From Mesostigma viride (taxonomy: Eukaryota > Streptophyta > Mesostigmatophyceae > Mesostigmatales > Mesostigmataceae): a stretch of DNA of 64,000 bases. The translations under genes were made by a program, and so were the position numbers. This document shows, piece by piece, positions 24,266 through 49,305 of the stretch. A model generated the notes under the pieces. It worked only from the letters and a program-made list of their open reading frames with translations, was not told the origin of the DNA and made no database searches. Positions within the stretch are counted from its first letter, which is position 1. Every line of letters begins with the position of its first letter. Where the stretch lies: contig RPFO01000188.1 in the NCBI GenBank assembly GCA_009746045.1, positions 586,516 through 650,515 of the forward strand, read 5' to 3'.

Positions 24266-27200
24266 TTATTCGCCAGCAAGCGCGTTCCCCCCTGGAGCAT
24301 CGTCATAGAGGAATGCATGCTGGAATACTTCGTCGTAATGCTTCACAAAGTGGCACTGCCGTCCAATCAAGCAAAGATCCAGGCCGAGGGGATGACAGAA
24401 AATGGCAGCAAGAGCCATGGCAATAAGTATAAGAAAGGGAAAGTGCAGCAGAGCACAATTCATTCCTTCAACTTGGTGCCTGTCTGCCCAGCTTACCTGC
24501 CTACGCAACATCTCCCCCCTACCACCGTTCATGATGATCGGGATCGATTATTCGCCTGCCTCTCATGAGTGAAACAACCTCCCAAGTAGATATTTCAATG
24601 ACAAGACCACCACCACCAGATACCGTGGCTGGTCGCTACTTTGAGCAAAATGTACAACATGAATAGTGCACGTGTGCCTATATCCTGTGCCGAGGAGTTT
24701 TGGCCACGCGAGATTTACACACCCGAGTAGCTCTCTCCCCTACAAGGTAGACACCACTGCCATTCCATCCCCATTCCACCACCCGTCTCGATGAGGATTT
24801 GTGAGGATTCATGCCCATGTGACGTAGTCGGGTGCTTAAAACCCCACGTCACCAGCAAATACAACGCCATGTAACTAAACCAACGAGGGACTAGCTCCTA
24901 TTTTGTCCACAACATACATACTTTCAACATTCACTCACCTCCATAAAATTTCCCACTAGTTAAGGCGTGAAAAGATTCATAATCGGGCTCCAAACCCGCC
25001 TCAAATAAGCATGTCCGAGCTACCCACCCCCACCCCCACCCTCACCTGCAGCGCACGCCTCAACCCTTCCCTCCCGCCCCTCACCTGCAGCCCTCATCCC
25101 TCCTTCACCCCCCCTTCCCCCTCCCTTCACCCCCCCTTCACCCCCCCTTCACCCCCCCTTCACCCCCCCTTCACCCCCCATTTCATCGGCAGGCCCTGCA
25201 CCCACCTTCCCTCCCCCCCCCCCTCTCCGCTGGTCCCCTGCAGCCTACGCACCTTCCTTAATTCCCCCCCCCGCCCCCCCACCCCCACCTTGAGCCCGTG
25301 CCGCAGATACTCGGGCAGTTCCTCCCAGTCCTTCTGATTGGCCGCGGGCAGGAGTATCGTGTCGAGCTCACTTCTGCGCGCCGCCACGGTCTTCTCCCGC
25401 ACGCCCCCGATGGGCAGGACGGACCCTGTCAGGGTGAGCTCGCCTGTCATGGCCAGGCCGGGCCGCACAGGGATGCCGAGCGCGAGGGAGAGAAGCGCCG
25501 TCGTCATCGTGGTGCCTGCGCTGGGGCCATCCTTGGGCGTCGCGCCCTCAGGGACGTGCATGTGGATGGCTGAAGTGGAGAAAAAGTCCTCGGACGCAAG
25601 CGCCGCAAGCTGGGTGGTCGTGCGCTTGGACGCGGGGGTGGTGGCATCGGTCACAACGGCCTGAAGTTGGAATATTGAGGGGGGGTGGGGGGTGGGGGTG
25701 GGGAACGCAAAGGGTTTAGACACGGGTTTCGGTGCGAGTTGTGACAGGGGGTTGAGGCGATTACGGTGGCCTGAAGTTTGGGGCGTTGACGGGGAGATGA
25801 GCATGTGTTTTAGCACCACTTGGGTGTTGATGGGGGCGGGGGGGGGGGGAGAGGGGAGGGGTGGACAGAGGATTGGGACAGGGGCACCTCAGTGAACAAA
25901 AGTTAGGGATGACCGATCAGGAAAAACATGCAGGGCCGACAGAATAAACCATTCCCCTCCGTCAAAACGTGACAAGTGTGACATGAAGCATTCGCCTCAC
26001 CCCCGTGGTCGGCCTGCTCACCCAAAAACGTTCTAAAAACTGCCAAAATGGCCCCGTGGTTCCCCAGCGCCAACCCCGGAGGCCGGAACCTACCCCGGAG
26101 GCGGCTTATAAGGAATCTACGTGGTGTATATGGCTACAGCACAAACATTTCCTTATAAGGAATCTACGTGGTGTATATGGCTACAGCACAAACATTTCCT
26201 TATAAGGAATCTACGTGGTGTATATGGATACAGCACAAACATTTCCTTATAAGGAATCTACGTGGTGTATATGGATACAGCACAAACATTTCCTTATAAG
26301 GAATCTACGTGGTGTATATGGATACAGCACAAACATTTCCTTATGAGGAATCTACGTGGTGTATATGGATACAGCACAAACATTTCCTTATAAGGAATCT
26401 ACGTGGTGTATATGGATACAGCACAAACATTTCCTTATAAGGAATCTACGTGGTGTATATGGATACAGCACAAACATTTCCTTATAAGGAATCTACGTGG
26501 TGTATATGGATACAGCACAAACATTTCCTTGTAAGGAATCTACGTGGTGTATATGGATACAGCACCTACATCTCCTACACAGTGCTACCACCATCAAATA
26601 CAGCACTCGCACTTTCCCATACGGCGCTACTACCGGCAAACACTGCATACTTCTACATATGCCTATCCACTGCTCCTATGTCCACTAGTATCACCGCAAA
26701 AGTGCCCCCATGGTTCACAGCCCTCATTCTAAAATATTACTAGCACTCATTAAAAAATATTACTAGTACTCATTATAGAATATTACTAGTACTCATTCTC
26801 AAATATTACTAGTACTCACTATAAAATATTACTAGTACTCACTTTAAAATATTACTAGTACTCACTATAAAATATTACTACTACTCACTACAAAATATTA
26901 CTAGTACTCATTCTAAAACGTGAAGTATCTCTTGACCAACTCTATCTCGCAAGCAAACAGGATGCTTCACACTCACCGCTTCACCCTGCGCCCCCTCGTT
27001 GCTGCCTGGCGCCCTTTTGTGCGCGGTCCCCTTGGCTCGCTGCGCCAGCTTGGCGAGGTACTGCCGCGCGTACGTGTACGCGATGTCGGAGCTCTCCCTC
27101 ATCACGTCGCCCAGCTGGCCGGTCGTCTTCATGCGGCCTTTGCCGTCGCCTGTCTCCGCAACGCTGCACAAGAGGAACCAGCGAATCCAAGGCAGACGGT

Positions 27201-30200
27201 TACAAAGCACAGGGATCATGGTTGATGGCCTAGGGCTAAGGTTTTAAAAGGGCACACAGTTAAGAAGGCAGAGGCTTTCATGGTTGATGGCCTAGGGCTA
27301 AGGTTTTAAAAGGGCACACAGTTAAGAAGGCAGAGGCTTTCATGGTTGATGGCCTAGGGCTAAGGTTTTAAAAGGGCACACAGTTAAGAAGGCAGAGGCT
27401 TTCATGGTTGATGGCCTAGGGCTAAGGTTTTAAAAGGGCACACAGTTAAGAAGGCAGAGGCTTTCATGGTTGATGGCCTAGGGCTAAGGTTTTAAAAGGG
27501 CACACAGTTAAGAAGGCAGAGGCTTTCATGGTTGATGGCCTAGGGCTAAGGTTTTAAAAGGGCACACAGTTAAGAAGGCAGAGGCTTTCATGGTTGATGG
27601 CCTAGGGCTAAGGTTTTAAAAGGGCACACAGTTAAGAAGGCAGAGGCTTTCATGGTTGATGGCCTAGGGCTAAGGTTTTAAAAGGGCACACAGTTAAGAA
27701 GGCAGAGGCTTTCATGGTTGATGGCCTAGGGCTAAGGTTTTAAAAGGGCACACAGTTAAGAAGGCAGAGGCTTTCATGGTTGATGGCCTAGGGCTAAGGT
27801 TTTAAAAGGGCACACAGTTAAGAAGGCAGAGGCTTTCATGGTTGATGGCCTAGGGCTAAGGTTTTAAAAGGGCACACAGTTAAGAAGGCAGAGGCTTTCA
27901 TGGTTGATGGCCTAGGGCTCAGGTTTTGAAAGGGCACACAGTTAAGAAGGCAGAGGCTTTCATGGTTGATGGCCTAGGGCTAAGGTTTTAAAAGGGCACA
28001 CAGTTAAGAAGGCAGAGGCTTTCATGGTTGATGGCCTAGGGCTAAGGTTTTAAAAGGGCACACAGTTAAGAAGGCAGAGGCTTTCATGGTTGATGGCCTA
28101 GGGCTAAGGTTTTAAAAGGGCACACAGTTAAGAAGGCAGAGGCTTTCATGGTTGATGGCCTAGGGCTAAGGTTTTAAAAGGGCACACAGTTAAGAAGGCA
28201 GAGGCTTTCATGGTTGATGGCCTAGGGCTAAGGTTTTAAAAGGGCACACAGTTAAGAAGGCAGAGGCTTTCATGGTTGATGGCCTAGGGCTAAGGTTTAA
28301 AAGGGCACACAGTTAAGAAGGCAGAGGCTTTCATGGTTGATGGCCTAGGGCTAAGGTTTTAAAAGGGCACACAGTTAAGAAGGCAGAGGCTTTCATGGTT
28401 GATGGCCTAGGGCTAAGGTTTTAAAAGGGCACACAGTTAAGAAGGCAGAGGCTTTCATGGTTGATGGCCTAGGGCTAAGGTTTTAAAAGGGCACACAGTT
28501 AAGAAGGCAGAGGCTTTCATGGTTGATGGCCTAGGGCTAAGGTTTTAAAAGGGCACACAGTTAAGAAGGCAGAGGCTTTCATGGTTGATGGCCTAGGGCT
28601 AAGGTTTTAAAAGGGCACACAGTTAAGAAGGCAGAGGTTTTCATGGTTGACGGCCTAGGGCTAAGGGTTCAGAAGGGCAGATGTATTACAAGGGCAGCGG
28701 CAAGCAAGCTTTCGTGAGGCCCGTGACTTGGCCGGTCTCTGCAACGTGGCAGGAAGAATTGGAGAATTGAAAGCAGGCGGGCGTACGGGTTAGAGGGGCG
28801 GAGGGGCCATGCAGCGGTGCACATGATGTCAACAGCGGCATGATGATGACGTGGCAGGATGATATGGAAAGGAGGGTGAGCACAACAGGGAAAAAAGAAC
28901 GGCGAGCGTCACCCGTGCGCTCCCCCGTACCCTGTCTCCACACTTTCTCCCGATCAGGGTGAAGCAGAAAGATAGTGTTTGTGTGTAGTAATAGTGTTTG
29001 TGTGTAGTAATAGTGTTTGTGTATAGTATTAGTGTTTGTGTATAGTATTAGTGTTTGTGTGTAGTAATAGTGTTTGTGTATAGTTATAGTGTTTGTGTGT
29101 AGTAATAGTGTTTGTGTATAGTATTAGTGTTTGTGTGTAGTAATAGTGTTTGTGTATAGTGATAGTGTTTGTGTGTAGTATAGTGTTTGTGTATAGTAAT
29201 AGTGTTTGTGTATAGTATTAGTGTTCGTGTATAGTATTAGTGTTTGTGTGTAGTAATAGTGTTTGTGTATAGTATTAGTGTTTGTGTGTAGTAATAGTGT
29301 TTGTGTGTAGTAATAGTGTTTGTGTATAGTATTAGTGTTTGTGTATAGTATTAGTGTTTGTGTGTAGTAATAGTGTTTGTGTGTATAGTGATAGTGTTTG
29401 TGTATAGTATTAGTGTTCGTGTATAGTGATAGTGTTTGTACGTGTGCACGCGTGTGCATGTGTACATGTGTGTGTTTGTGAATCAAGGAGACGACTATAT
29501 ATGTGCGCATGTATCAAGGAGACACTATATATACACTACATATGTGTGTGGGTGTGTGCGTTCATCCCCTCAAGTGTTGCACGTACCCCGTTTCCACAAA
29601 CAAGGTGGACCCCCCCATCGATGTCCACGCCAGGCCAACCACCACGCCCACGGGGGTGCTCTCGTACACGCGATCGCTGGCACGCAGAGAGAAGGGCAGA
29701 GGGAAACAAACCGAGAGTTGATGAAGCATATGCCACAAACAAGGCAGAGACGTGTGCCATATATAGACAGAGGTATGCCAAAAACAACCAGAGATGCATT
29801 ATGAGGGAATATGCCATAAACACTTGCGCTCATAGACGCAGACGCTGGCATGAAGGGGAGAAACATATGCACGAGAAATGGCATATGGGGGAGAAGCGAT
29901 GCAGCATGTATGGCTTAAACGGACCAAGCAGTTGCAAAAGGTAAACGGTATAAACGGACCAAGCAGTTGCAAAAGGTAAACGGTATAAACGGACCAAGCA
30001 GTTGCAAAAGGTAAACGGTATAAACGGACCAAGCAGTTGCAAAAGGTAAACTGTATAAACGGACCAAGCAGTTGCAAAAGGTAAACGGTATAAACGGACC
30101 AAGCAGTTGCAAAAGGTAAACGGTATAAACGGACCAAGCAGTTGCAAAAGGTAAACGGTATAAACGGACCAAGCAGTTGCAAAAGGTAAACTGTATAAAC

Positions 30201-33200
30201 GGACCAAGCAGTTGCAAAAGGTAAACGGTATAAACGGACCAAGCAGTTGCAAAAGGTAAACTGTATAAACGGACCAAGCAGTTGCAAAAGGTAAACGGTA
30301 TAAACGGACCAAGCAGTTGCAAAAGGTAAACCCAGTCCTCACGGATGGCAAACACATGCCAGCACATCGTTTCATCATGCGGCAAACACATGCCAGCACA
30401 CCGTTTCATCATGCGGCAAACACATGCCAGCACACCGTTTCATCATGCGGCAAACACATGCCAGCACACCGTTTCATCATGCGGCAAACACATGCCAGCA
30501 CACCGTTTTATAATGGTGGAACAATCTGGGGCCTACACATGTGGAGCACACAAAGGCCCACCGACAAAACCCTCCAGCGACCTGCGCCGAGCAAACAGAC
30601 TTGCGCCCGCACCAGTTACAAACTGCGCCAGCTACAAACAAAGCGTGCGGGTCACTATACGAACCTAGACTGACCTGTGCCAAGCAAGGAAACAATCTTG
30701 CTTCTGTACCTGTTGAGCACTAGTTGTCCCCCCACAACACCCCATTGCAGGCCTGTACTGTAAGTGACCATTGCCCAGCAACAAATGAATTGGCGCCCCC
30801 ACCATTTGAACACGAGGTGGGCCACATAGTCCTTCAGATCGTCCGCCGTCACCACCACCACATAACTGTTTAGGGTTTAGGTTCAGGGTTCAGGGTAAGG
30901 GGAGAGACTTTTGCCCCGCACCTGTTAAACACCGGGTGGCCCACATAGTCCTTCAGATTATCCGCCGTCACCACAACCTTCTTGTGCGTCCACGCGGGCG
31001 CGGGGGCCACCCCCCCTCCTTCCCCCCCTCCTTCCCTTCGCCCTTGTTACTCACGCCGCCCTCGACATGTTTGCCCTCCCTCTCGCTTGATGGCTGCTCC
31101 TTTCCGACCAATTCCTGAAAGCTTTCTGATGATGTCGCCAGGGATGGTGATGATGGCGACGATGGTGGCAATGGTGATGAGGGGGTGGTCACGTCCTCCT
31201 CTCCATCTGACGCGGTGGCAGGTCCATTGAGGGACTTGGCTTCTTCAGCCTTGCTCTCCCGAACCAGCTTGAGCGCGATCTGGTGATGATGATGTCAGAA
31301 TTGTCAATCAAGCATGGGCTGCCAAACTTAAATGAGCAAAGGAGTGGCACCAGGGCACCAGCTTCAGCGCGCCAAGGTGAAGGTGTCAGCATTATTAATG
31401 TCTCCATCCCATCATATGCGTGCATACCGTGCAGGCATATTCTGATGGGGACAAGTCGGCGGTAACAGAGGTGCCAGCTGGCGGACGATCTGTGGAAAAC
31501 GTATGTCAGCTCTGTGATACTAGGCAACTACGCAAGGACGACTCCCGAGAAGCAAAAAGTGTGAAAGGGTGAGAAAAGAGCACACAGGTGAAAGAGTGTA
31601 GACTCGCCACCAAACAGGCTTGAGTGCGATCTGTGGAAGAATGATGACCGCGCGCTCAACACAAGCGGGAAACCCTACGGAGCACAAGCGCATGAAGCAA
31701 GCCAAAAAGACTACCTATGAGCATTGGCATTACTTCGCAATCCAGAGCCTCAGCATGAATGCTGTCTGTGGATGGCGTGATCGTTACAGATGCCTATCCC
31801 TATCCATCCATCCATCCATCCATCCCAATCTCTTCAGTCATACATGTGCTAACCGTGCAGACAAGAGTGTCACAAGGCAACATTCTGTATACGCCAGAAA
31901 TTTGATGGGCACTTGCGATGAAACAGGATATACCAGCCTAGACCACCTTCTGTGATGTGTCCATCATACCAGAGCCAGCATTCCACACCCTGAAGGCAGC
32001 TTACCCGTTCCCCCCCTCCCTCTCACACCCATCCCCCCAATCTGGGGGCCAATCTTCCCCAGTGCCTTCTGTCGTAAATACTCGCCCATGGCCTAGGCAT
32101 CCACCCCTCACACGCTTACACACCCACGCATACCCATCCGCCCGCCCGCCCGCCCACCCACCCACCCACCCACCCACCCACCCACCCACCCACCCACCCA
32201 CCCACCCACCCACCCACCCACCCACCCACCCACCCACCCACCCACCCACCCACCCACCCACCCACCCACCCACCCACCCACCCACCCACCCACCTTGCGG
32301 TAGATCTTCTCCAGATGCTTCTGCAGGTTCCTCACGCCGGCCTCGCGGCAGTACTTGTCAATAAGTGCCTTGATCGCCCCGTCCTCCACCTCCACCTGCC
32401 CCTCCACAATCCCCGTCTTCTTCCGCGCCTCCGGCTCCAAGTACTGCCGCGCGATTCCCTGTTTCTCCTCGGATATATACCCCGCCACCCGGATCACCTC
32501 CATACGGTCCAGCAACGGGCCCGGGATCGTCTCCGTGACGTTCGCGGTACACACGAAAAGCACCTTGGACAGGTCCACCGGAACGTCCAGGTAGTGGTCC
32601 CGGAAGCTCGCGTTCTGTTCCGGGTCGAGAAGCTCCAGGAGCGCGCTCGCGGGGTCCCCCTGGTGGCCCCTGCCCAGCTTGTCGATCTCGTCGATCAGCA
32701 CCAGCGGGTTGTTGGTCCCCGTGGCCTTGAGGCACTGGACCATCTTCCCGGGCATCGCGCCCACGTACGTCCGGCGATGGCCCTTGATCTCAGCCACGTC
32801 CCCGAGCCCTCCCACAGAGAAGCGGAAGAACTTGCGGTTGAGCGCGCGGGCGATCGAGCGGCCGATGCTGGTCTTGCCCGTGCCGGGCGGGCCACTTAGG
32901 CATAGGATCTTGCCCTGTGGGTTGCCCAGTCAAAACACATCCCAAACACACACAAAAGAGTTAGCATGCGAGGATTAACAAGCTACTCCACTATAGTGGG
33001 TGGTGCCAGAAGCACCGCTCAGGGACAGAAACTTGCCCTGCAGCGGTGAAGGACCCAGTAAGACAAAATGTCGAATGCACGTGCAAACTTCAGTGTGCTC
33101 CTAGGGGGGTAATGCGGGCCGGGGGGGTGGGGTGGGGTGGGAGGGTGGAACGGGGCTACGACACGGAACACTTGCCCTGAGGCGCGCCAGTAGGTAAAAA

Positions 33201-36200
33201 ACATTGGCATGTCCACATTGAGTGGCTTATGCGGATCCGCCGAAATATGTCCAGTACGCACAAACAATACTTAGCTATTGATAGAAAAGAGCAAATAGGT
33301 GGTGGCCACCCAAGCACACCTGTTTGCCCTGCACAATCGAATATGACAAACATAACAACCTGCATATTCCATTGGACGAAAAGAATGCAACTCCCCTGCT
33401 TGCGCAACAAAAATATCATGCGCACATGAAACACAAACGAATATGTAGAAAGGTAAGACGGCTCTGCTAAACTTTGACCAAACATTAACGCCAGAACACA
33501 TAGTGATGGATAGAGGCGTATGCAAGTATAAGCACACATGACCAAGCGAACATCAACTCGGGCAAGGGAAAAAAATGGAGGCACCTTGCAGAGAAAGCAG
33601 TCAGACAGGGGTGTCTGTTGGGGTCTGCTTGCCTAACCCGTGTCGCCAGAGAGACGTGGACTGCAAATACTCTACAGCAAATCCGAATTGAAGGGCTACT
33701 GCGCGGGATCTTGCCCTGCGTGCCCACAGAAACAGTTGTACCTCACATAGGCATACCACAGCAACATGTGAACCACGTGTAGACTATTACCATGCCATAT
33801 TGTCTTCAACATGGGGCAGTCAAATACAAGGAGCATAAAAGGCACCCGCAGGGGAATACGACAAGGTTTAACCCCAGGTACTGTAACAGAGGTTACATGA
33901 AAACTATGTTTAGGCCCGGGCTATATGAACTGTTGATTAAAAGCTACAGGCACAAATTTACACGTGGACAGCTCGATCTAGCGAATTTTTCATATTACGG
34001 TGCTCCTTGAGGCAAGACATCCACGCGGGGATGGGATGCGGCCGTAGCAAGGACCGTGTAACGCCAAGGTACCTCCCATAACCGCCTGCAAATCCGGTCG
34101 CATGATCGCTGTGTACGAACTGGGTGCGGCGGGACCTAGCTCAAGTGAAAACAGGTCCGATTTTTTATGAAACGGCGTGACGTGGTTTGCACCTCCGGAG
34201 GGGGATGTTAAAAAATTACGAAGCTACTTGGCAACATAAAATAATTGACGAGAGAATCTCGACTCTCTGATTTCGCCGTCCACTTTCAAATGTCTCCGTA
34301 CTTTTCCTTGTATGCCTCCATCTAGGGCGATTTAAGCCCAATCTTCTAATACAAGTTTCAATAAAAGTTTCCATAAAAGTTTGTATAGACCGGGCCTTAC
34401 ATATCAGTATTGATAATTATTCACAAACACAATAATACATTGATAAATATGCGTATATATAGATAGACGCGTGGTGTTTATTGGCTGCGGTGGCCAGCGA
34501 CGTTTCCTCTGCATCAGAGCTGTGCGTCGGCATGCTGTGCCACACAGATTAGACCCAAGGGGGCAATCACGTAGGAAGCGCGCCTTGGTCCCAGAAGTGT
34601 TCCCTGTCGGGCGCCACTTCCTCTTTAATACGGGGGTTTTCTGACGAGCAATGCGACGCGAGCTTCCCCTTTGTTACAAGACGACCGTCACGTCGGAGAA
34701 GGCCACTCAAGCCAGCGCGACATCACCCTGAGACAAGCGCACGCTTGTCAACTTCCTGGAAGCATGGCTCGAAGGTGTGTCGCGTGGCCTGAGCTACTGC
34801 TGCATGGACAAGACTTGGCGCATAGGGGGGGCCCCATCAGGAGAAAGCTTGTGGCCTGACCACCCGCACGCGCAGGTCGAAAGTGACCAGCAACGCCACT
34901 AGCCCGTAGAGACCCGCGACACGACATGCTAGCCACGCTGTGCCTTCTTACGCTTCACATTCCAAATGACAGCTCACGTCCTGCTGCATGTCCTGTGGCC
35001 ACCAAGACATTACCGAATGACGGCCATGCGAAGCTATAGCACTGGCCCAGAAAACACCGCGACAAGCGTGACTGCCTGCCTGGTGATATGTGCTGGCTTC
35101 AGCCGGTCTGGCCCGCATGGCTGCTGTCTTATCCAATAGGCATTGAGCCCACATAGCATTGCCCCAACGTAGATCGCCTCTGCTACAACATACGGGAGAA
35201 GGCGACCTTGGCTTTACCTTCCACATGTCACAGGAACACAGGAACCAAGGCGCGCACCTCTGGCGCCGGCCAGGGAAGGGCATGACATGTGGGTGCTGCA
35301 AGTCACCCCACATCCTCCGGTTGAAATGGTACCTGTCACTCCGGTTCAAAACCATCCACCCGAGAACCAACAACGAGCCAGACATCACTAATCTCGACAG
35401 CACTGAGCTTTAGAAGGCACCCACCTGTGTCGTCCCCCTCAGCTTTCCCACCGCTATGAACTCCAGTATTCTCTCCTTGACGTCCTGCAACCCGTAGTGG
35501 TCCTCATCCAGCACGCGCGCCGCTTCGTCCACGTCCAAGTTCTCCTCGCTGTGGTGCGCCCAGGGGAGCGCGGTGAGCCAATCCAAATAGTTGCGTGTGA
35601 CCCCGAACTCCGACGAGCTGGCCTCTAGCCCCGACAGCTTCTCGAGCTGCTCCTCGATCACCTCGAGCACCTCGGGAGGGATGGACGCGCGGATGGGCTC
35701 CACGCGCTCGCGGAAGCGGTCCACAATCACGCTCTTCTCGTCGTTCTCCAGACCCAGCTCGCGCTTGATGGAGCGCAGCTGTTCCATGAGGAAGAAGCGC
35801 CGTTGCTGGCCGCTGATTTGCTCCTCCACCTTGCGGCTGATGTCAGCCTTGGGGGGGGGGAGAGGGGGGGGGCAGGAGCGGGCGGTTGGGGCGGAGGGGG
35901 TCAGGACGTGCAAAGGCACATTGCTCTCATGCCGTCCACCGAGTGGCTGATGTCGGCCTGCGGGAGTTGCGGGGATGCATGTGGGAACGTGCCAAGGTCC
36001 ATGGACAACAGCACCATCACCATCCCAGCCTGCGACATCAAGCACAACTCCGAAAATCCCCCCCAACCCCAGCTGGGGAATGCCCACGAAACACAGTCCA
36101 TACTAAATTGAACTCCGAACAAACCCCAGCAACTGGCATCCTGAGAAGCCTGCGCGCTCAACATAAACCCGGTGTGCGATCCTACACGCAGGCATCGCCA

Positions 36201-37441
36201 TGCATGCGGCCGGGGAAATAGTACTGCTGTGACTAGCAACAACTACAGTTGAACTACAGTAAAACCTTCAACCCTGTTGTCCCGTACCCCACGCCTGCGC
36301 CCCACGGCCGCCCCTTCGCCCACCTGCAGGCGCCCCAGGTCCACCTCCTTCTTGATCAGCAGCAGGGTCTTGCGAAGGCGCTCAGGGACGTCCAGGCACT
36401 CAAGCACGCCCTGGATCGCACTGCCCTCGGCACTGGTGAGGAAGGCCCCCAGGTCGGCCAGCTTGGCAGGGTCCTCAAAGTCACCCACGTATTGGACAAA
36501 CGCAGCCAGCTGCTCTCGGTGGAGCGGGTTGAGGCTGATGAGGTCTTTAAGGGTGGCGATCACCTCCAACTTGGTGGCCTTGATCTCGTCACTCTCCTGG
36601 TAGGGGTTGTCCTGCGGAGGCAGTGGGTGGGTGGGGTGGGGTCGGTGGGTGCGTGGGTGGGTGCGTGAGTCAGTTCAGAGGGTGGGGGTGGGGGTGGGGG
36701 TGAGGGATGGGGAAAAGAGAGGCGGAAGACTCTTTAGGTGGCCCTGCAGTGCAGCAAGGAGTGGAGGGCAGCACCCCGGCCAGGAACGCACCTTACCCAT
36801 TGCTTGGGCAATCAATTAATTGGTAGCAAAAAGACTGCACCTGTCTCTGTGTTTGCTGTGACTGTAGGCCATTCCACAGGCTCGAAATGCGGAGCACTAA
36901 CAAGCCGATCAATGCATCAGTCTTGTAGGGTTGGGGCATGACGCAGACGATTCGTCTGTTTTTGACTTTTGCGTAATTATTTTTCGAATGAGATTCGATT
37001 AGTACTCCGTGGCATGCCTAGGCGCATGACATGCAAGTACTTACTTACTTTCACCTCATTAGTTCATTTAACCCAATCTAACCCTCGCGATTGGCAGGTG
37101 AGAGCATCCCACACATACGAAGCGGGGGTGCCTGGGGCGCCTCGAAGCGGGTCATGACTCACACTAGTGTCCAAATGCAGATATGGTAAACAAATTGGTC
37201 CATGGGTGAAGACAGTGGCCACGCGCGTACCTTGAGGTGCCGCACGAACACGTGCAGGGGGTCGATGCTCTCCTGCGGATGCACGCGGATGAGGGCGCAC
37301 ACAGGGGGCAAAAGCGGGACGAGTGGATGGATGTAAGAGCATGAGCCGGTGGGAGAGGAAGACAAAACGCACGCGAGCCAAGGGGAGCAGAATACCGGCA
37401 CGTGTTTTGGAGGGGTCATTAATGTATTCAAGATGGGCGAA

Positions 37442-37503
<62 letters not shown>

Positions 37504-37722
37504 GTGTGTGTGCGCGCTTGTGTGTGTGTGTGCACGCGCGCGCGAAAGAGGGGGAGAGAGACGGGGGAGGGAGGGAGGGAGGGAGGGAGGGAGGGAGGGA
37601 GGGAGGGAGGGAGGGAGGGAGGGAGGAGGGAGGGAGGGAGGGAGGGAGGGAGGGAGGGAGGGAGGGAGGGAGGGAGGGAGGAGGGAGGGAGGGAGGGAGG
37701 GAGGGAGGGAGGGAGGGAGGGG

Positions 37723-37783
<61 letters not shown>

Positions 37784-40700
37784 CATGTGTGCTATGGCGT
37801 GAAGAGGGGGGGCTGGGGGTCAGTGGGGGTTGGGGGGTGGGGTTGGGGGAGGAAAGCAAGACAGGTGACGATAGACGAGCAAGGGCCCTATCTCGACCAT
37901 GAGCAACATTGCCGATTGACGGAATAATGCTACCAGTTTCACTAGGCTGAACCCCGTGCACTCAATACCTACTAGCACAACCCTTGTAGTCATCAGCCTG
38001 AGCCTTCTAGGGCCTCAGCAGTGATTCCGCCCAGCACACGCACTTGTGCTACTGCACACGTGGCATCACAGGAAAAATGACACACACTGGCGCCGTAGCA
38101 TTATGAAATTGACATCCTTCTGGGACCCTGCCACACCACGATGACAATGCCAAACTAGTACGATAGTGCCACATGCGATGATGCTGCATTACTGGCACTT
38201 GTAGATGAATTCCATCCCGTACAAGACAAGTGCCACGTCACTACCACCTGTGACTAGTGGAGATTCCGCATTCCATCCGCCACAGCACGTACCACCCCGA
38301 GCCATTGGTGAGTGACGCTAGTAACTAACTACGACAACTTTCCATTTGTGACACTTTCCGGTGCCATCCTGCCATAAAACCGTACCACATGCTAGTGCCA
38401 TACTCCTAGGATCATTACTCCAGCTGCGACAACTGCCAGTACACACACGCGGGTGCCGTCTGCCAGTGATCCAAGTGCAGCACAACCCGTATTCCATCCA
38501 ACAAAATGAACTTATGGCCTGCCACGTCGGTGCCGGCAGGTGGCAAACACACCACGCCGGTGACCGAGGAGTGATACATCTCCAACACGCGTCACAGATA
38601 CAAAACTCAAGCCGCGAATACAAAGGCATCAAAGGACAGGTCATGCATGAAAGGACACTAGCGCACGCACCACGTCGGTGCGCACGATGCGTCGGTGGCC
38701 CATCAGCAGCAGCTGGCCGCCGTCGTCGCGCTTGTAGACAAGGTGCACCTGTTTGTTTGTTGGGGCACGACAACAGGGAGCGGCGTGGGAGAAAGGATGA
38801 AGGGTGGGAGGGAGGATTAAGGGTAAGGTAGGCATGTCCAGGCCCATTATGAATGTAATCACTGGCACACGCTTGCAGACCGAGTGGAACCGTTGCAGGC
38901 ACCACCTGGTGCGGTGAGGGAGGCGGGCTAAAAACCACTGAAATCGCCCCATGGCCGATGCTGGCGCGCCAGGTGGAGCTGTTACGGGCGTTACCAGTCA
39001 TTATGAGCAGAACGGGTGCGAGAGGTAGGCTGGCCACTACAATATCATGGCCCAGGATAGTAGGCAGGTCGGCAGTGGTGCATTTCGGTACTCTTTACGA
39101 GGCATCACACAAAAATTCGAAAGATATGGCATGTATCGAATACCGATTAAAAAAATAGAGCATCAAAGCACCACCTGCGCGAGCGTGCCCGTCTCGACCA
39201 GGTCGTCCGCGGCATAAATCTTGGGCTGTTCCAGCAGCGACGTCGACACGGGCGCGTTCTTGAGCAGGAAGGTGGCAACGTACGCTTGCCCGCTCTGCTT
39301 CATGGCAACCACTGCCTCGATCAGCTTGGTGTCCTGCGGGTAATAATAGCATTCAGTGACCAACGGGTATTAGATAACTCAATAATGATCCGGCGTCATT
39401 ACTGTTGCACGGCTAGTCACCGCCTCGATCCGCTTAGCGTCCTGCGAATATGAATGGCAGGTAGTAAATGAAGAAATTTTTGTTAGAATAATACCAGAGT
39501 GGCAAACATTTACTCTTACTAGAACACTATTCCGTAAAAGTGTTGCATAAAACTGGCAAAACAGCATATGGTGGCCGACGAGCATTACTGATGATGGGTG
39601 GCGAGTCACCACCCAGATCCACGTGGTGCGCTGTACGCGCTGACAGCATAAGAGATGAACTAGTGCGAACGAGGAAGTCACCGTTGTTTGCATTGTATGG
39701 CGAGTCATCCCACCAGTAGTCCTGCGGGGGCGCATAAAGAAAATCTTTACTTTTTTGATAAAAGAGATTGAGGGATACGAGACGAAAGACCGCAGCGCTG
39801 CTGTATGGCTAATCGCCGATGATGTCAGCATCGTGTCCTGTGCCGATCCTGTTGCCGGAGAGCAAGGTGATGTACCAAAGCCATCTACTGGCATCCTGCA
39901 CCGACTTGATGCTGTTGTTGCTGCCATCCCGCACCTACATGCTATCCCACGCCACTCACCGCGGTGCTGATGGGGATCATGTTGCCGGGAAGCAGCGGGC
40001 GCCGTGGCAGAGGGACGACCAGCAGCTGGAACAAGTAGTTGGTGACAGGTGGCGACACATGGTGCACGGACGCCGTAGCAGGAGGGCAACTTGCGCATGA
40101 GGGTGTGGACGCCATCCCAATAACCCAAGGAGCATGTATGTTAACAATAGCTTGGAACATTTACTTACCAGTCTCTCATATAAAGGACACCAAAGTATAC
40201 TCATTAGCTTCAAACATAACAATAGCTTGGAACATTTACTAACCAGTCTCTCATATAAAGGACACCAAAGTATACTCATTAGCTTCAAACATAACAATAG
40301 CTTGGAACATTTACTAACCAGTCTCTCATATAATAAGGACACCAAAAGTATACTCATCAGCTTCAAACATAACAATAGCTTGGAACATTTACTAACCAGT
40401 CTCTCATATAATAAGGACACCAAAGTATACTCATCAGCTTCAAACATAACAATAGCTTGGAACATTTACTAACCAGTCTCTCATATAATAAGGACACCAA
40501 AGTATACTCATCAGCTTCAAACATAACAATAGCTTGGAACATTTACTAACCAGTCTCTCATATAATAAGGACACCAAAGTATACTCATTAGCTTCAAACA
40601 TAACAATAGCTTGGAACATTTACTAACCAGTCTCTCATATAAAGGACACCAAAGTATACTCATTAGCTTCAAACATAACAATAGCTTGGAACATTTACTA

Positions 40701-42468
40701 ACCAGTCTCTCGTATAATGAGGACACCAAAGTATACTCATCAGCTTCAAACATAACAATAGGTTGGAACATTTACTAACCAGTCTCTCATATAATAAGGA
40801 CACCAAAAGTATACTCATCAGCTTCAAACATAACAATAGCTTGGAACATTTACTAACCAGTCTCTCATATAATAAGGACACCAAAGTATACTCATCAGCT
40901 TCAAACATAACAATAGCTTGGAACATTTACTAACCAGTCTCTCATATAATAAGGACACCAAAGTATACTCATTAGCTTCAAACATAACAATAGCTTGGAA
41001 CATTTACTAACCAGTCTCTCATATAAAGGACACCAAAGTATACTCATTAGCTTCAAACATAACAATAGCTTGGAACATTTACTAACCAGTCTCTCGTATA
41101 ATGAGGACACCAAAGTATACTCATCAGCTTCAAACATAACAATAGCTTGGAACATTTACTAACCAGTCTCTCATATAATAAGGACACCAAAGTATACTCA
41201 TCAGCTTCGAACATAACAATAGCTTCGAACCGATCATGTCAATCTCTTCACGCAGGGGCTCCCCTTCAAGACCAGCCGCCGCACGTCCCATACAGGTAAT
41301 ACTTTCAAGTGATGTTTTCCTTCCCTTTCACCAGCAGAGCCAAGCAGGGGGCGTGATGGCTGGCCCCTCAGGGGTGCGTGCCTGCCACATACCTGCCTGC
41401 CACATCACGAGCAGTCAAGCAAGGTTCATGAATGCTGTCCCCACACTAGCGCGCATGGGCACTCATGCATGGTCTCTCTCCAACATGCGCCTGTGACAAC
41501 ACAGAGACCTGCACTCGCATGCCAGCTGCTTTCTTACGCCAACTGCCTTCAATACCCCCTGCCTCCGATAACATCTCCCTCTTTTACCAACTGCCTCTTA
41601 CACCAGCTGCCAAGGGCAGCAATTCGACGTGCTACTCCATGTGCTACTGCATGTGCCTTCTGGTAGTGGTACTACTATACTAACTCCAAGCTCCCCAACT
41701 AAGGCTGCCTCCAAGTATATGAAGCCATTCCCCAGGTAAGTAGCAATTGAACGGTGGAGCCCTTCTTGTAAACGTCCGATTTCTTAAAGACACGCGATTC
41801 TTTATAGACTGCCTGCGGTTGTTAGAACTATGCTCGCATTACAAAGCGTGCAATTAAAGGAGATAACTTCCCAATAAAGAGTTCCCATTTGAAGACCATG
41901 TTCCTTGTCGTTGATAGACATATATGAACTACTTGGACGGCGAGGTAATGATAAAAGTATAGTATCCCCTATAGGCAGGAACCATGCTAGTGGTGCGTCT
42001 AGTTGAAAAATATTAATATCATAAGCCCATCAACAGGGGACAGCATACCTTTCGAAGTGACTCGATTCTACTTGCCATCGGGATGACCGCCTGGTTTTTG
42101 CCCGTGGTGCTCTCTCCGTCGTCCTGTCCCCCCTTCGAAGGATTGTTCCAAAAACTGTGCATCCAGCCTTTCTTCCTGCCTCCTTTTGCACCGCCTCCGT
42201 CGGACCCACTGTCTCCAGAGGAGGGAGAGCTGCTCCCGTCGTCATCAATGTTGTCGCCTGACGCCGTGGCCGAGAAGCAAGCCCGGAATTCCAGAGGGGG
42301 ATAGGTTAAATAGCGCGGAGTGCGCCTGCCGGCAAATGGCCCAGCACAATTCCTGGCCGACAACCTAAGCAGCAAAACGGGGGTTCCGGACGTAGAGCGG
42401 TGTGTTCCCAGTAGGCTATCAAAACAAAATTTTAAGGCCGGGAAATGATTGCGACAGACACGCGCCAT
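24266..42468 (-). CDS. LON1: Lon protease, mitochondrial type (14 exons)
   Basis: ATP-dependent serine protease of the organelle matrix that degrades damaged proteins. Exons (minus strand): 42468-42049, 40025-39960, 39333-39175, 38748-38671, 37272-37231, 36611-36324, 35847-35425, 32914-32294, 31279-31055, 30980-30922, 29676-29587, 27163-26977, 25660-25289, 24355-24266. All have GT-AG borders and matching phases, giving about 1,039 aa. Exon 1 is an Arg-rich, Asp/Glu-poor leader typical of a mitochondrial presequence. Exons 2-6 form the substrate-binding N-domain ([21 protein letters not shown]). Exon 8 carries Walker [10 protein letters not shown] (~500-508), Walker B LVLIDEID (~563-570) and REAGVRNLQ. 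Exons 11-14 carry the protease: [32 protein letters not shown] with Ser ~933 and GGVREKT with Lys ~976. The 43-residue Ser-Lys spacing equals that of E. coli Lon (S679/K722). The C-terminus is [14 protein letters not shown]. The start of exon 10 could be 30977. Introns are unusually repeat-loaded. Confidence 0.93.
26105..26570. repeat. 47-bp minisatellite in Lon intron 12
   Basis: Ten units starting AAGGAATCTACGTGGTGTAT and ending ATTTCCTTAT, nearly identical (GCTACAG changes to GATACAG after the first two). It lies between the exons at 26977 and 25660. Confidence 0.93.
26735..26925. repeat. 23-24-bp AT-rich minisatellite in Lon intron 12
   Basis: About eight units of AATATTACTAGTACTCATTA with variable A/T runs, ending about 50 bp from the donor of exon 12. 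Confidence 0.9.
27224..28665. repeat. 62-bp minisatellite, ~23 copies, in Lon intron 11
   Basis: Units begin CATGGTTGATGGCCTAGGGC and end AAGGCAGAGGCTTT. They are nearly identical (single changes near 27920, 28296 and 28638). The array lies between the real 3' splice site of exon 12 (27163) and a decayed copy of that exon start at 28746. Confidence 0.95.
28970..29445. repeat. 19-bp minisatellite TAGTGTTTGTGTGTAGTAA in Lon intron 11
   Basis: Around 25 units with GTGTA/GTATA and AATA/ATTA variants. Minus-strand ORFs through it (Thr/Asn/His-rich) are artefacts. Confidence 0.9.
29935..30332. repeat. 35-bp minisatellite in Lon intron 10
   Basis: About eleven units of GTAAACGGTATAAACGGACC plus AAGCAGTTGCAAAAG, with GG/TG alternation (CGGTAT or CTGTAT). 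All three minus-strand frames stay open through it, which is a consequence of the unit sequence. Confidence 0.93.
30345..30512. repeat. 34-bp minisatellite in Lon intron 10
   Basis: Five units of ACACATGCCAGCACACCGTT plus TCATCATGCGGCAA, next to the 35-bp array. Confidence 0.9.
32139..32293. repeat. (CCCA)n tract joined to Lon exon 8 donor
   Basis: About 38 units of CCCA/CCGC on the plus strand, i.e. (GTGG)n on the transcribed sense. The first unit supplies the 5' splice site of exon 8 (CGCAAG|GTGGGTGG). Confidence 0.95.
33913..34396. mobile_element. PIF/Harbinger-type MITE in Lon intron 7
   Basis: The left end GGCCCGGGCTATATGAACT pairs with the right end, which reads GGCCCGGTCTATACAAACT on the minus strand. 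The flanking trinucleotide is TTA on both sides (33910-33912 and 34397-34399), the target duplication expected for PIF/Harbinger elements. At 484 bp with no transposase it is non-autonomous. Confidence 0.75.
36935..37052 (+). repeat. LINE 3' UTR and (ACTT)n tail, copy 3, in Lon intron 5
   Basis: GACGCAGACGATTCGTCTG, GTAATTATTTTTCGAATGAG, TAGTACTCCGTGGCATGCC, GCGCATGACATGCAAGTACT, (TTAC)n: the same 3' end as at 8880-9003, inserted antisense to the Lon gene with very little ORF2 sequence. Confidence 0.85.
37444..37781. repeat. Compound (GT)n-(GGGA)n-(GA)n tract in Lon intron 4
   Basis: About 50 bp (GT)n, then GCGC-interrupted GT, about 150 bp of (GGGA)n with GGA slips, then about 54 bp of (GA)n: more than 200 bp of pure purine on the plus strand. 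All ORFs here are artefacts. Confidence 0.95.
40137..41226. repeat. ~77-bp minisatellite with higher-order structure, Lon intron 1
   Basis: Fourteen units beginning TAACAATAGCTTGGAACATT and ending ATCAGCTTCAAACA. Variants differ by ATAAAGG/ATAATAAGG/GTATAATGAGG, CAAAG/CAAAAG and ATTAGC/ATCAGC. The order of variants is repeated in blocks of five to six units, i.e. a higher-order repeat. Confidence 0.9.
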
Positions 42469-44694: not shown

Positions 44695-47600
44695 TTAATT
44701 TACGTGACTACTGACTAGTGCCGGTTTTTTGCAAGATGAGCGGACGAGACTGAGATCCAGAAAGAGGCCATTATGTTACAGTGCACTAGATTTTATTAAA
44801 CCCTAAATTCCATTTTTATTCAACCCTAAATCCATCGTCACGCCCTGCCTGCAGTCGGCCTTGGAGTTGGCCCTCGTGCATCACCAGCGCGCGGGGCTCG
44901 CCACTGTTCCGCGGCCCCAACAAAGTGAGTCCTGGATTAATTTACGTCTTTGAGCGATCATCTGACACTTGTTGTTACAGGATAATATATCAAGTAACGT
45001 GCATGGTAACTTCCACGGTAATGGTTTCGTCGGCGGTCATCCTATTATATCACAACCGTCATATCTTATGGTAATCATCATACAGTGAATTAGTTGCTCC
45101 TTTTTATTTAGTGTTAAATTCTCGTGTGCTGCCGCCAAGGTCATGCTGGCAGTTATCAATCTTTCATTAGTACAGCGACTGTTTTGTTACAATAATTTCT
45201 GTTGTCATGGTACTTTTATCAGATCATGCCCGCAACTGCCCTACCTTGATGAATTGATAGTTTGATTCGGTTGGGCACTCTTGGGTTATGGTATCTCTTT
45301 GGTTGGGAAATACTCGTTCCTGGTAGGGGGATAGCAGTTCCTGGTTGGGAAATACTTGTTCCGGGTTGGGGGCACATCTTCCTGGTAGGGGGTCACATGT
45401 TCCTGGTTTGGGGGCACACATTTTCTTGGTTGGGAAATACTCGTTTCTAGTACTAGTTGGGGTGCACACGGTCCTGGTTGGGGGCCACGTGTTCATGGTT
45501 GGGGGATAGCAGTTCTTGGTCGGGGGCCACATGTTCCTGGTTGGGGGCCACATGTTCCTGGTAGGGGCCACATGTTCCTGGTTGGGGGGGCACACGGTCC
45601 TGGTTGGGGGGTGGCAGTTCCTGGTTGGAAGACACATGTTCCTGGTTGGGGGGCACATGTTCCTGGTTGGGGGGCACATGTTCCTGGTAGGGGGGCACAT
45701 GTTCCTGGTAGGGGGCCACATGTTCGTGGTAGGGGGCCACATGTTCCTGGTTGGGGCAAAGCAGCTCCTGGTTGGGGTCACATGTTCCTGGTAGGGGGTC
45801 ACATGTTCCTGGTTGGGGCAAAGCAGCTCCTGGTTGGGGGCACATGTTCCTGGTTGGGGGGCACATGTTCCTGGTTGGGGCAAAGCAGCTCCTGGTTGGG
45901 GCCACATGTTCCTGGTAGGGGGCACATGTTCCTGGTAGGGGGTCACATGTTCCTGGTTGGGGGCCACATGTTCCTGGTAGGGGGGGCACATGTTCCTGGT
46001 TGGGGGGTGGCAGTTCCTGGTTGGGGGGCACATGTTCCTGGTAGGGGCCACATGTTCCTGGTAGGGGGGCACACGGTCCTGGTTGGGGGATGGCAGCTCC
46101 TGGTTGGGGTCACATGTTCCTGGTTGGGGGCCACATGTTCCTGGTAGGGGGTCACATGTTCCTGGTAGGGGGCACATCTTCCTGGTAGGGGCCACATGTT
46201 CCTGGTTGGGGGATGGCAGTTTGTGGTTGGGGGCCACATGTTCCTGGTTGGGGGGTGGCAGTTCCTGGTTGGGGGGCACATGTTCCTGGTAGGGGCCACA
46301 TGTTCCTGGTAGGGGGGGCACACGGTCCTGGTTGGGGGATGGCAGCTCCTGGTAGGGGGCCACATGTTCCTGGTTGGGGGCACATGTTCCTGGTAGGGGG
46401 TCACATGTTCCTGGTTGGGGCAAAGCAGCTCCTGGTTGGGGTCACATGTTCCTGGTTGGGGGCCACATGTTCCTGGTAGGGGGGGCACACGGTCCTGGTT
46501 GGGGGGTGGCAGTTCCTGGTTGGGGGCACATGTTCCTGGTTGGGGGTCACATGTTCCTGGTAGGGGGCCACATGTTCCTGGTAGGGGCCACATGTTCCTG
46601 GTTGGGGGGGCACACGGTCCTGGTTGGGGGGTGGCAGTTCCTGGTTGGGGGGCACATGTTCCTGGTAGGGGGCACATCTTCCTGGTAGGGGGCACATCTT
46701 CCTGGTTGGGGGGGCACACGATCCTGGTTGGGGGATGGCAGCTCCTGGTTGGGGGGCACATGTTCCTGGTAGGGGCCACATATTCCTGGTAGGGGGTCAC
46801 ATGTTCCTGGTTGGGGGGCACATGCTCCTGGTTGGGGGGTGGCAGTTCCTGGTTGGGGGGCACATGTTCCTGGTTGGAGGTCACATGTTCCTGGTTGGGG
46901 GGGCACACAGTCCTGGTTGGGGGATGGCAGCTCCTGGTTGGGGGGCACATGCTCCTGGTAGGGGCCACATGTTCCTGGTAGGGGGTCACATGTTCCTGGT
47001 AGGGGGCACATGTTCCTGGTTGGAGGTCACATGTTCCTGGTTGGGGGGGCACACAGTCCTGGTTGGGGGGTGGCAGTTCCTGGTTGGGGGGCACATGTTC
47101 CTGGTAGGGGGCACATGTTCCTGGTAGGGGGCACATCTTCCTGGTAGGGGCCACATGTTCCTGGTAGGGGGGGCACACGGTCCTGGTTGGAGGTCACATG
47201 TTCCTGGTTGGGGGGGCACACGGTCCTGGTTGGGGGGTGGCAGTTCCTGGCAGGGGGCACATGTTCCTGGTAGGGGCCACATGTTCCTGGTTGGGGGGCA
47301 CATGCTCCTAGTTTGGGGGGCACACGGTCCTGGTTGGGGGGTGGCAGTTCCTGGTTGGGGGGCACATGTTCCTGGTAGGGGGGCACATGTTCCTGGTAGG
47401 GGTCACATGTTCCTGGTTGGGGGGGCACACGGTCCTGGTTGGGGGATGGCAGCTCCTTTTTGGGGGATAGCAGTTCTTGGTAGGGGGCCACATGTTCCTG
47501 TTTGGGGGCACATCTTCCTGGTAGGGGGGGCACACGGTCCTGGTTGGGGGGTGGCAGTTCCTGGTAGGGGGCACATGTTCCTGGTAGGGGCCACATGTTC

Positions 47601-49305
47601 CTGGTAGGGGCCACATGTTCCTGGTTGGGGGGCACATGCTCCTGGTTGGGGGGTGGCAGCTCCTGGTTGGGGGCCACATGTTCCTTGTAGGGGCCACATG
47701 TTCCTGGTTGGGGGTCACATGTTCCTGGTAGGGGGCCACATGTTCCTGGTAGGGGGCCACATGTTCCTGGTAGGGGGTCACATGTTCTTGGTAGGGGGCA
47801 CATCTTCCTGGTTGGGGCCACATGTTCCTGGTTGGAAATACTAGCAGTTCCTGGTTGGGAAATACAGACAAGCTCAAGGTGGCGGTCAGCCTGTCTTCAT
47901 ACCAATGAGCTAACTATTGTCCTCTTATGCTATAAACAAACACCGTGCGTCCCTGCTCTCAGCCCAAAATCGTGGTAAGATCCTCAAGCACGCCGAGCTG
48001 AACATCTACGACCTGGACCAGGCGGAGGTGGCGAAGAGGTGCTTTATCCCCGCGCTCTTTGGCCACGGACCCAAAGACAACCTCAGCGACATGCATCGCT
48101 CGGAGGACATTCGCGATGCGTATGGGGTTGGTGGCTTGGTAGCTGAGAATCACTGTGTTGCTCATTCTTTCGGTCAAGACAACTCATCGGCATCCGCCCA
48201 AGGTCAGAGGATTGAGTCTGATAAGAGGACTTGCGTGGGAAATGCCAGAAGAGGGGGAAGTTGATTACCTGCAGACTAAGGCCTTTTCAACCCTTATTAT
48301 ATCCGGTGTGGTTGAATTTGTACCAGTTGTGTACCTGTATGGTATACAGCCAACTTTTAACCCCATGGTACAAGTCTGTCCTTTTTCGGAAGAACATTCG
48401 CTATCCCCCTTCCCAGTCCCCCGCCTTCAGTGGGGTCATCACCAGTCACTAGTCACCAGCTCCCCGCACCCTTTCTCAGGGCCTACGCTTGCCAAGATGC
48501 ACAAATTGTTGGGAGGGAGGGAGGGAGGGAGGGAGGGAGGGAGGGAGGGAGGGAGGGAGGGAGGGAGGGAGGGAGGGAGGGAGGGAGGGAGGGAGGGAGG
48601 GAGGGAGGGAGGGAGGGAGGGAGGGAGGGAGGGAGGGAGGGAGGGAGGGAGGGAGGGAGGGAGGGAGGGAGGGAGGGAGGGAGGGAGGGAGGGAGGGAGG
48701 GAGGGAGGGGAGGGAGGGAGGGAGGGAGGAGGGAGGGAGGGAGGAGGAGGAGGGAGGGAGGGAGGGAGGAGGGAGGGAGGGAGGGAGGGAGGGAGGGAGG
48801 GAGGGAGGGAGGGAGGGAGGGAGGAGGGAGGGAGGGAGGGAGGGAGGAGGGAGGGAGGAGGGAGGGAGGGAGGAGGAGGGAGGGAGGGAGGGAGGGAGGA
48901 GGGAGGGAGGGAGGGAGGGAGGGAGGGAGGAGGGAGGAGGGAGGGAGGGAGGGAGGTCGAGGGAGGGAGGGAGGGGTCCAGGGAGGGAGGGAGGTCGAGG
49001 GAGGGAGGGAGGGAGGTCCAGGGAGGGAGGGAGGGAGGGAGGTCCAGGGAGGGAGTTACGTGCCGTGCGCATAACATAATCCACTACAATAATAAACAGG
49101 TACGGCGACAGGACGACGCGAATAATAAACAGGGACGGCAACCGGACTGTTTGTAATGTATTCTCCTTACTTTTTCTTTTAGCCCCTTCGTGTAGGTGTG
49201 TACATGCGTTCCCTCTTTTCCTTCTTAGTTTTGGTTGTTTGTGTTGGTAGTGGTGGTGGTGGTGGTGGTGGTGGTGGTGGTGGTGGTGGTGGTGGTGGTG
49301 GTGGT

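Follow-up and report, generated by a model that had tools for sequence, protein, structure and literature searches.

The window analysed here, a stretch of 64,000 nt, is nuclear DNA from Mesostigma viride, an early-branching streptophyte alga whose genome assembly comprises 440 Mb in 2243 contigs. Its minus strand carries a Lon protease gene of the mitochondrial type with 14 exons (24266..42468). The exon chain translates without stops, and residues 130-1039 of the model, the part that was searched, are 100% identical to the annotated Mesvir1 protein P0001; the N-terminus differs between the two. For a published Mesostigma viride assembly, the parts of the report available to us give a mean intron length of 1142 bp (PMC6947507). 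Near-perfect minisatellites lie inside Lon introns at 26105-26576, 27216-28679, 29916-30515 and 40142-41230, with units of 47, 62, 35, 34 and 77 bp; the array at 27216..28679 (minus strand) holds 23.6 copies of a 62-bp unit, 1464 bp in all. Upstream of Lon, at 45316-47835, there is a degenerate 20-21-bp array of 2.5 kb with the consensus GTTCCTGGTAGGGGGTACAT.

Several introns of the Lon gene contain diverged copies, here called echoes, of the edge of an adjoining exon. To score echoes of exon starts, the first 24 nt of each exon (also 18 and 30 nt) were compared without gaps with its own intron and with 200 dinucleotide shuffles of that intron. At 24 nt the starts of exons 3, 7, 8, 9 and 12 outscored 200 of 200 shuffles, and the start of exon 2 did so only at 30 nt; the starts of exons 4, 5, 6, 10, 11, 13 and 14 were not above all shuffles at 18, 24 or 30 nt. 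A gapped test with 36 nt gave p=0.005 for the starts of exons 2, 3, 7, 9 and 12. The result for exon 8 depends on the test (ungapped p=0.085 with 18 nt and 0.035 with 30 nt; gapped p=0.13 and 0.11). In the pooled test described below, non-random copies were found in the preceding intron for 5/13 Lon exon starts and in the following intron for 3/13 exon ends; other shuffles gave 4 starts and 2 ends, i.e. 6/26 junctions vs 8/26.

The echoes of exon starts, all on the minus strand, differ in quality. The best match to the exon 3 start (real start 39333) lies at 39418..39441 (20/24, after CAG, spacing 108), with two further copies, each weak alone, at 39607..39630 (15/24) and 39814..39837 (14/24), both after CAG; the last of these corresponds to the echo given as 39843 in the original prediction. 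The exon 7 start (35847) is echoed at 35934..35957 (19/24, after CAG, spacing 110). For exon 8 (32914) the best copy is at 33014..33037 (17/24, after CAG, spacing 123), significant in the ungapped 24-nt test only, and weaker AG-led copies follow at 33176, 33328 and 33715. Exon 9 (31279) has its best match at 31607..31630 (18/24, after CAG), a copy without AG at 31350..31373 (16/24, spacing 94) whose intron side matches 18/24 at lag 91, and a third at 31466..31489 (14/24, after CAG) that is weak alone. The exon 12 start (27163) is echoed at 28717..28746 (22/30, or 18/24 in the ungapped 24-nt test) without AG; its spacing of 1583 includes the 1464-bp minisatellite, which sits between echo and exon, and falls to 119 without the array. 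The minisatellites in the Lon introns are recent expansions adjoining old decayed echoes. A possible exon 11 start echo (29676) at 29821..29844 (14/24, after CAG) is not significant alone.

The echoes listed in the original prediction were readable where it had placed them or a few bases away. Those of exons 3, 7, 9 and 12 stand out from shuffles of their own introns with and without gaps and that of exon 8 only in the ungapped 24-nt test, while the exon 13 candidate (25747..25770, minus strand, spacing 110) was at chance level in every test. A spacing of exactly 110 bp had been proposed for three cases; exon 7 is the only supported one, as the exon 3 spacing is 108 and exon 13 is not significant. 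A fixed 110-bp unit was rejected, with distances to the nearest echo, in the hand-made list of echoes described below, running from 40 to 206 (for exon 12, 1583, or 119 without the array). The echoes had also been said to follow an AG. This holds as an enrichment, since an AG directly precedes 11/39 of the top-three Lon matches vs 5.0% of intron positions (binomial P=2e-6), and 13/159 matches in the other seven genes (P=0.033), but it fails for the echoes at 31373 (TT) and 28746 (CA).

Exon ends are echoed in the introns that follow them. The gapped test gave p=0.005 for the ends of exons 2 and 10, and weaker signals were seen for exons 4, 6 and 8 (p=0.015-0.035). The end of exon 2 (real end 39960) has its echo in intron 2 at 39845..39865 on the minus strand, with a gapped score of 25 (p=0.005 and p=0.003). 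Exon 10 (30980-30922) is followed, 119 bp downstream, by a near-complete tandem copy at 30803..30865 (minus strand), which scores 53 at its start and 46 at its end and matches 23/24 at lag 119. From there a ladder of copies of the exon 10 end plus donor extends over 30613..30803 on the same strand, with copies ending at 30803, 30710 and 30613, so that the exon end with its donor occurs four times, each time with GT after it. In the Lon controls at p≤0.005, exon starts against the following intron gave 1/12 (exon 10), ends against the preceding intron 0/13, and mid-exon segments 0/13 against the preceding and 2/13 against the following intron, both of the latter from short exons (2 and 10). The annotated protein P0001 contains no extra exon derived from the echoes, which in Lon sit within single introns. 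An origin of the echoes as copies of spliced RNA was considered, as the piece at ~39845 and the echo at 39837 together resembled the exon 2-exon 3 joint, and was dropped because intron-like sequence, not the end of the previous exon, precedes the other acceptor echoes.

The same comparisons were pooled over eight genes with 66 introns, namely Lon, a starch phosphorylase gene on the same contig and six Cpn60/CCT loci, which were found by a family search and picked for compactness; exon borders outside Lon are our own models. A seventh Cpn60/CCT locus (L029) did not enter the count, being the second allele of L028. At p≤0.01, an echo was found in the adjoining intron for 8/66 exon starts and 9/66 exon ends, or 17/132 junctions, against 4/345 control comparisons in total. 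The controls comprised the wrong side of the exon (1/58 and 1/58), one intron of another gene for each exon edge, which also serves as the introner-like comparison (1/66 and 0/66), and mid-exon segments of exons of at least 110 nt (0/48 and 1/49). One of the nine echoed ends, in L027 intron 3, has an uncertain exon end in G-rich sequence, and the count is 8/66 without this intron. Lon contributes 8/26 echoed junctions and the other genes 9/106, so the phenomenon extends to other genes of this genome, where the original prediction had proposed to look. Its further claim that the duplications are anchored on 3′ splice junctions is not supported, as donors are echoed as often as acceptors.

Outside Lon, the start of starch phosphorylase exon 9 has an echo at 98 bp (20/24, AG kept). 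No acceptor echo at gapped p≤0.01 was present in five of the six Cpn60/CCT genes. Three partly modelled genes of the window (SCAMP-like, UCH-like and CCCH-like; 9 introns, not pooled) had no exon start at gapped p≤0.05; in the SCAMP-like gene, the exon start at intron 1 reached ungapped p=0.02 and the exon end at intron 3 gapped p=0.017. By eye, an exon end of the SCAMP-like gene (AAGAACT then GTAAGT; 13676 to ~13470, minus strand) seems to be followed by two downstream echoes, GAGAACTGTGAGTG and AAGAACGGTGAGG (p=0.06).

By age, the echoes form a series that begins with an exact 40-nt duplicate of a donor and a 76-nt array and ends with degenerate ladders; Lon stands at its old end. The youngest case is intron 3 of L028, where the end of the exon and its donor recur in a 40-nt unit (24/24). 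The L029 allele also carries this duplicate, with one mismatch; intron divergence between the two alleles is 2.46% and exon divergence 0.58%. In L031 intron 3, an array of 76-nt units extends out of the exon end into the intron; its copies, at 76, 152 and 228 nt, match 21, 20 and 19 of 24, GT is kept in all three, and the intron side matches 19-20 of 20. In L030 intron 5, the acceptor is copied at 102 bp and again at 205 bp (20/24 each, with the AG lost from both), and the intron-side score is 23.0 vs a null of 4.0 for the nearer copy and 6.0 vs 4.1 for the farther one. In L026, the intron side is visibly homologous, with gaps, at intron 3, and at intron 7 the echo is itself repeated at 47 nt. 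Adjacent direct copies at a constant period are seen in L028, L031 and the nearer L030 copy; the old Lon ladders have uneven spacings and an intron-side similarity that is mostly undetectable. The intermediates in L028, L031, L030 and L026 are what leads us to interpret the echoes of Lon as tandem duplicates that have decayed. L028 and L029 lie on separate contigs (C887 and C1641) as alleles of one CCT gene, ~96% alike, and one intron of L029 has an extra stretch of ~3 kb with a predicted protein that we read as retrotransposon-like.

The echoes are most probably the remains of local tandem duplications across either junction of an exon, followed by decay. Duplication units of about 40-160 bp, commonly about 100 bp, would happen to span an exon-intron junction. 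On the acceptor side such a unit would consist of the pyrimidine tract, the AG and the first exon bases; on the donor side it would pair the end of the exon with the beginning of the intron. Whichever copy adjoins the rest of the exon would remain in use, and the outer copy would turn into intron. As long as splicing uses the former, the mRNA would not change, so the event could be tolerated and the intron would become one unit longer. As the outer copy mutates freely and the exon is conserved, the exon side would remain readable after both intron sides have drifted apart, and repeated rounds would produce ladders of old acceptor- or donor-like sites together with a longer intron. A duplication confined to an exon would alter the protein and should not persist, in keeping with how few mid-exon echoes there are. 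What the sequences show is that exon edges have non-random copies on both sides, in several genes and at various ages, and that the young copies are tandem; that the old Lon copies share this origin, and that splicing makes little or no use of the echoes, is our inference. The proposed lengthening of introns through tandem duplication at splice junctions, with acceptor-like AGs as remnants, is supported in this broader form.

An excess of local self-similarity also speaks for this reading. Self-similar pairs at lags of about 30-170 are several-fold more frequent than at long lags in two nuclear stretches, with masked arrays excluded; the bacterial-like contig C2011 showed no clear excess at these lags. 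If about one local duplication or array can be detected in each kb and the unit is ~0.1 kb long, a very rough calculation has about one in ten junctions hit by chance. The observed 17/132 is close to this estimate, and junction-specific machinery is therefore not required. The 8/26 junctions of Lon exceed it, though the estimate is a rough, order-of-magnitude argument.

Neutral decay of the outer copies predicts no strong preference for silent sites, splice dinucleotides kept at about the squared identity, acceptors of intermediate quality, and intron sides that are similar but below the exon sides. These expectations were compared with 27 echoes from all genes, listed by hand; the list takes in weak secondary copies as well as Lon intron 7 (ungapped only), and it omits L027 intron 3, the end echo in Lon intron 8, L025 intron 7 and L030 intron 4, each of which reached p≤0.013 in some test. 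Mismatches at codon positions 1, 2 and 3 number 41, 62 and 66 of 216 each for the 27 echoes and 20, 31 and 32 of 88 each for the 11 Lon acceptor echoes, contrary to the earlier reading of the changes as mostly silent; the five strongest Lon echoes have a mild third-position excess (6, 8 and 14 of 40 each). The description of the echoes as once-coding is right as a matter of descent, but they bear no clear mark of coding constraint. The splice dinucleotide is kept in 19/27 echoes vs 15.1 expected from identity alone. Among 716 Lon intronic AGs, the tracts of ten hand-listed echo acceptors of Lon, each of which has its AG, stand at a mean percentile of 0.89 (P=1.2e-5), which is below the real acceptors (P=0.0035) and equals the 0.89 obtained by simulated decay at 0.3 substitutions per site.

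The intron sides fit less well. Similarity is present in L031, in L026 intron 3, in the nearer L030 copy and in the 94-bp echo of exon 9 at lag 91. In a neutral simulation of the intron-side score with rates from the L028/L029 alleles, which left out 3/27 echoes (spacing below 94 or unclear), acceptor echoes of all genes (n=14) scored 5.9 vs 12.1 simulated (P=0.0003), Lon acceptor echoes (n=10) 4.2 vs 11.0 (P=0.0003) and Lon donor echoes (n=3) 3.3 vs 10.3 (P=0.018). Donor echoes of all genes (n=10) fit, at 19.5 vs 15.6, a result carried by the L031 array and L026. These P values are overstated, as echoes at one junction are not independent (the 10 Lon pairs come from 5 junctions) and the age prior is flat. 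Ungapped identity profiles were not trusted alone for intron-side homology, since they also give low values for L026 intron 3, whose homology is plain to see once gaps are allowed; a gapped test and the simulations were added. In one set of intron-side alignments some displays match overlapping sequence to itself, and only its upstream and downstream scores were used. The turnover of pyrimidine tracts may exceed the simulated rates, and we regard the shortfall at acceptors as a residual puzzle and not as a refutation of tandem duplication.

This shortfall, together with the abrupt drop in ungapped similarity where Lon acceptor echoes reach the AG, would also be expected if duplication were tethered to junctions, coupled to transcription or splicing (for example by template switching at paused complexes), so that the intron side was never copied. 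We consider this unlikely: the young cases continue through the junction, the tracts before echo AGs resemble decayed acceptors, and 17/132 junctions is near the rough estimate for random duplication. Because similarity drops so sharply at the AG in the old Lon echoes and their acceptor scores are good, the sequence also allows a broader scenario, to which we give little credence, in which junctions would be duplication hot spots that copy outward into the exon, the ladders would be partly usable, and intron length and splice choice would co-evolve.

A somewhat different possibility is that the echoes are working alternative splice sites under selection, such as poison acceptors that add a stop and lower the level of Lon mRNA. 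An AG before 11/39 top Lon matches, good acceptor scores, and an exon-side similarity that is high where the intron side is low would suit such a role. Yet the dinucleotides are kept little above the neutral expectation (19/27 vs 15.1), the echo acceptors fall short of real ones and score about as neutral decay would leave them, the codon-position bias is slight, and the annotated Lon protein lacks echo segments, which together make selected sites quite improbable. That the echoes are chance matches or assembly errors is very improbable indeed: 7/13 Lon exon starts lack significance at each of the three ungapped lengths and the weakest echoes (14/24), taken singly, match no better than chance, but controls give 4/345 vs 17/132 for echoes, the 40-nt duplicate occurs in two alleles that are 2.5% apart in introns, and the copies are mostly diverged, unlike collapsed haplotypes.

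Local tandem duplication followed by decay, the reading we prefer, has relatives in the literature. In the potato RdRp gene, an intron was gained by tandem duplication across an intron-exon boundary (PMC4974935); as presented in the parts of that report available to us, this is one recent event that created a new intron, whereas in Mesostigma the outer copies stay within one lengthened intron, donors are involved too, and several genes and many ages are represented. In the Rogers model, as described in the same parts of PMC4974935, introns are gained by duplication of an AGGT-bearing piece of exon. The Mesostigma echoes share with it the supply of splice sites by local tandem duplication; unlike in that model, the source spans an existing junction, and the annotated Lon protein contains no resulting new intron. 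The near-complete copying of Lon exon 10, in a duplication that extends into the introns, is like tandem exon duplication and the origin of mutually exclusive exons, as far as the accessible portions of PMC6071210 and PMC9013439 describe them. The other echoes differ from these in being edges of 20-45 nt that lack the pair of splice sites a cassette exon would have; duplication of a whole exon with both splice sites was found for Lon exon 10 only, and mid-exon copies at 0/48 and 1/49. The 76-nt repeats of L031 and the 47-nt repeats of L026 form arrays as intronic minisatellites do, but unlike ordinary intronic minisatellites both arrays contain an exon edge, and that of L031 also a donor.

The type of event is thus known; as far as a thin check of the literature shows, what is new is its recurrence at many junctions of one genome, the ladders, the range of ages, and the outcome of longer rather than new introns. 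Where the available parts of PMC4974935 treat a junction-spanning duplication as a single case of intron gain, here it is recurrent, present in stages and on both sides of introns, at 17/132 junctions. Echoes at different stages thereby allow the growth of introns to be followed. If the process proves genome-wide, one could count how often introns lengthen, cryptic splice sites arise and material for alternative splicing is supplied. Gene annotators should be warned, as our simple gene finder called several echoes exons.

Two contigs of the assembly call for separate remarks. In C1524, 29288 N fall within the 100 kb spanning L005-L014, including parts of L007-L010 (1.02-1.06 Mb), which may be a gap. 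C2011 (1.49 Mb; L001, L004 and L015-L024) was tried and rejected as a second nuclear sample: with 34% GC, six TRF rows in 100 kb, and Lon and Cpn60 genes that are each one open frame, it is probably, judging by these features, a bacterial contig in the Mesostigma assembly.
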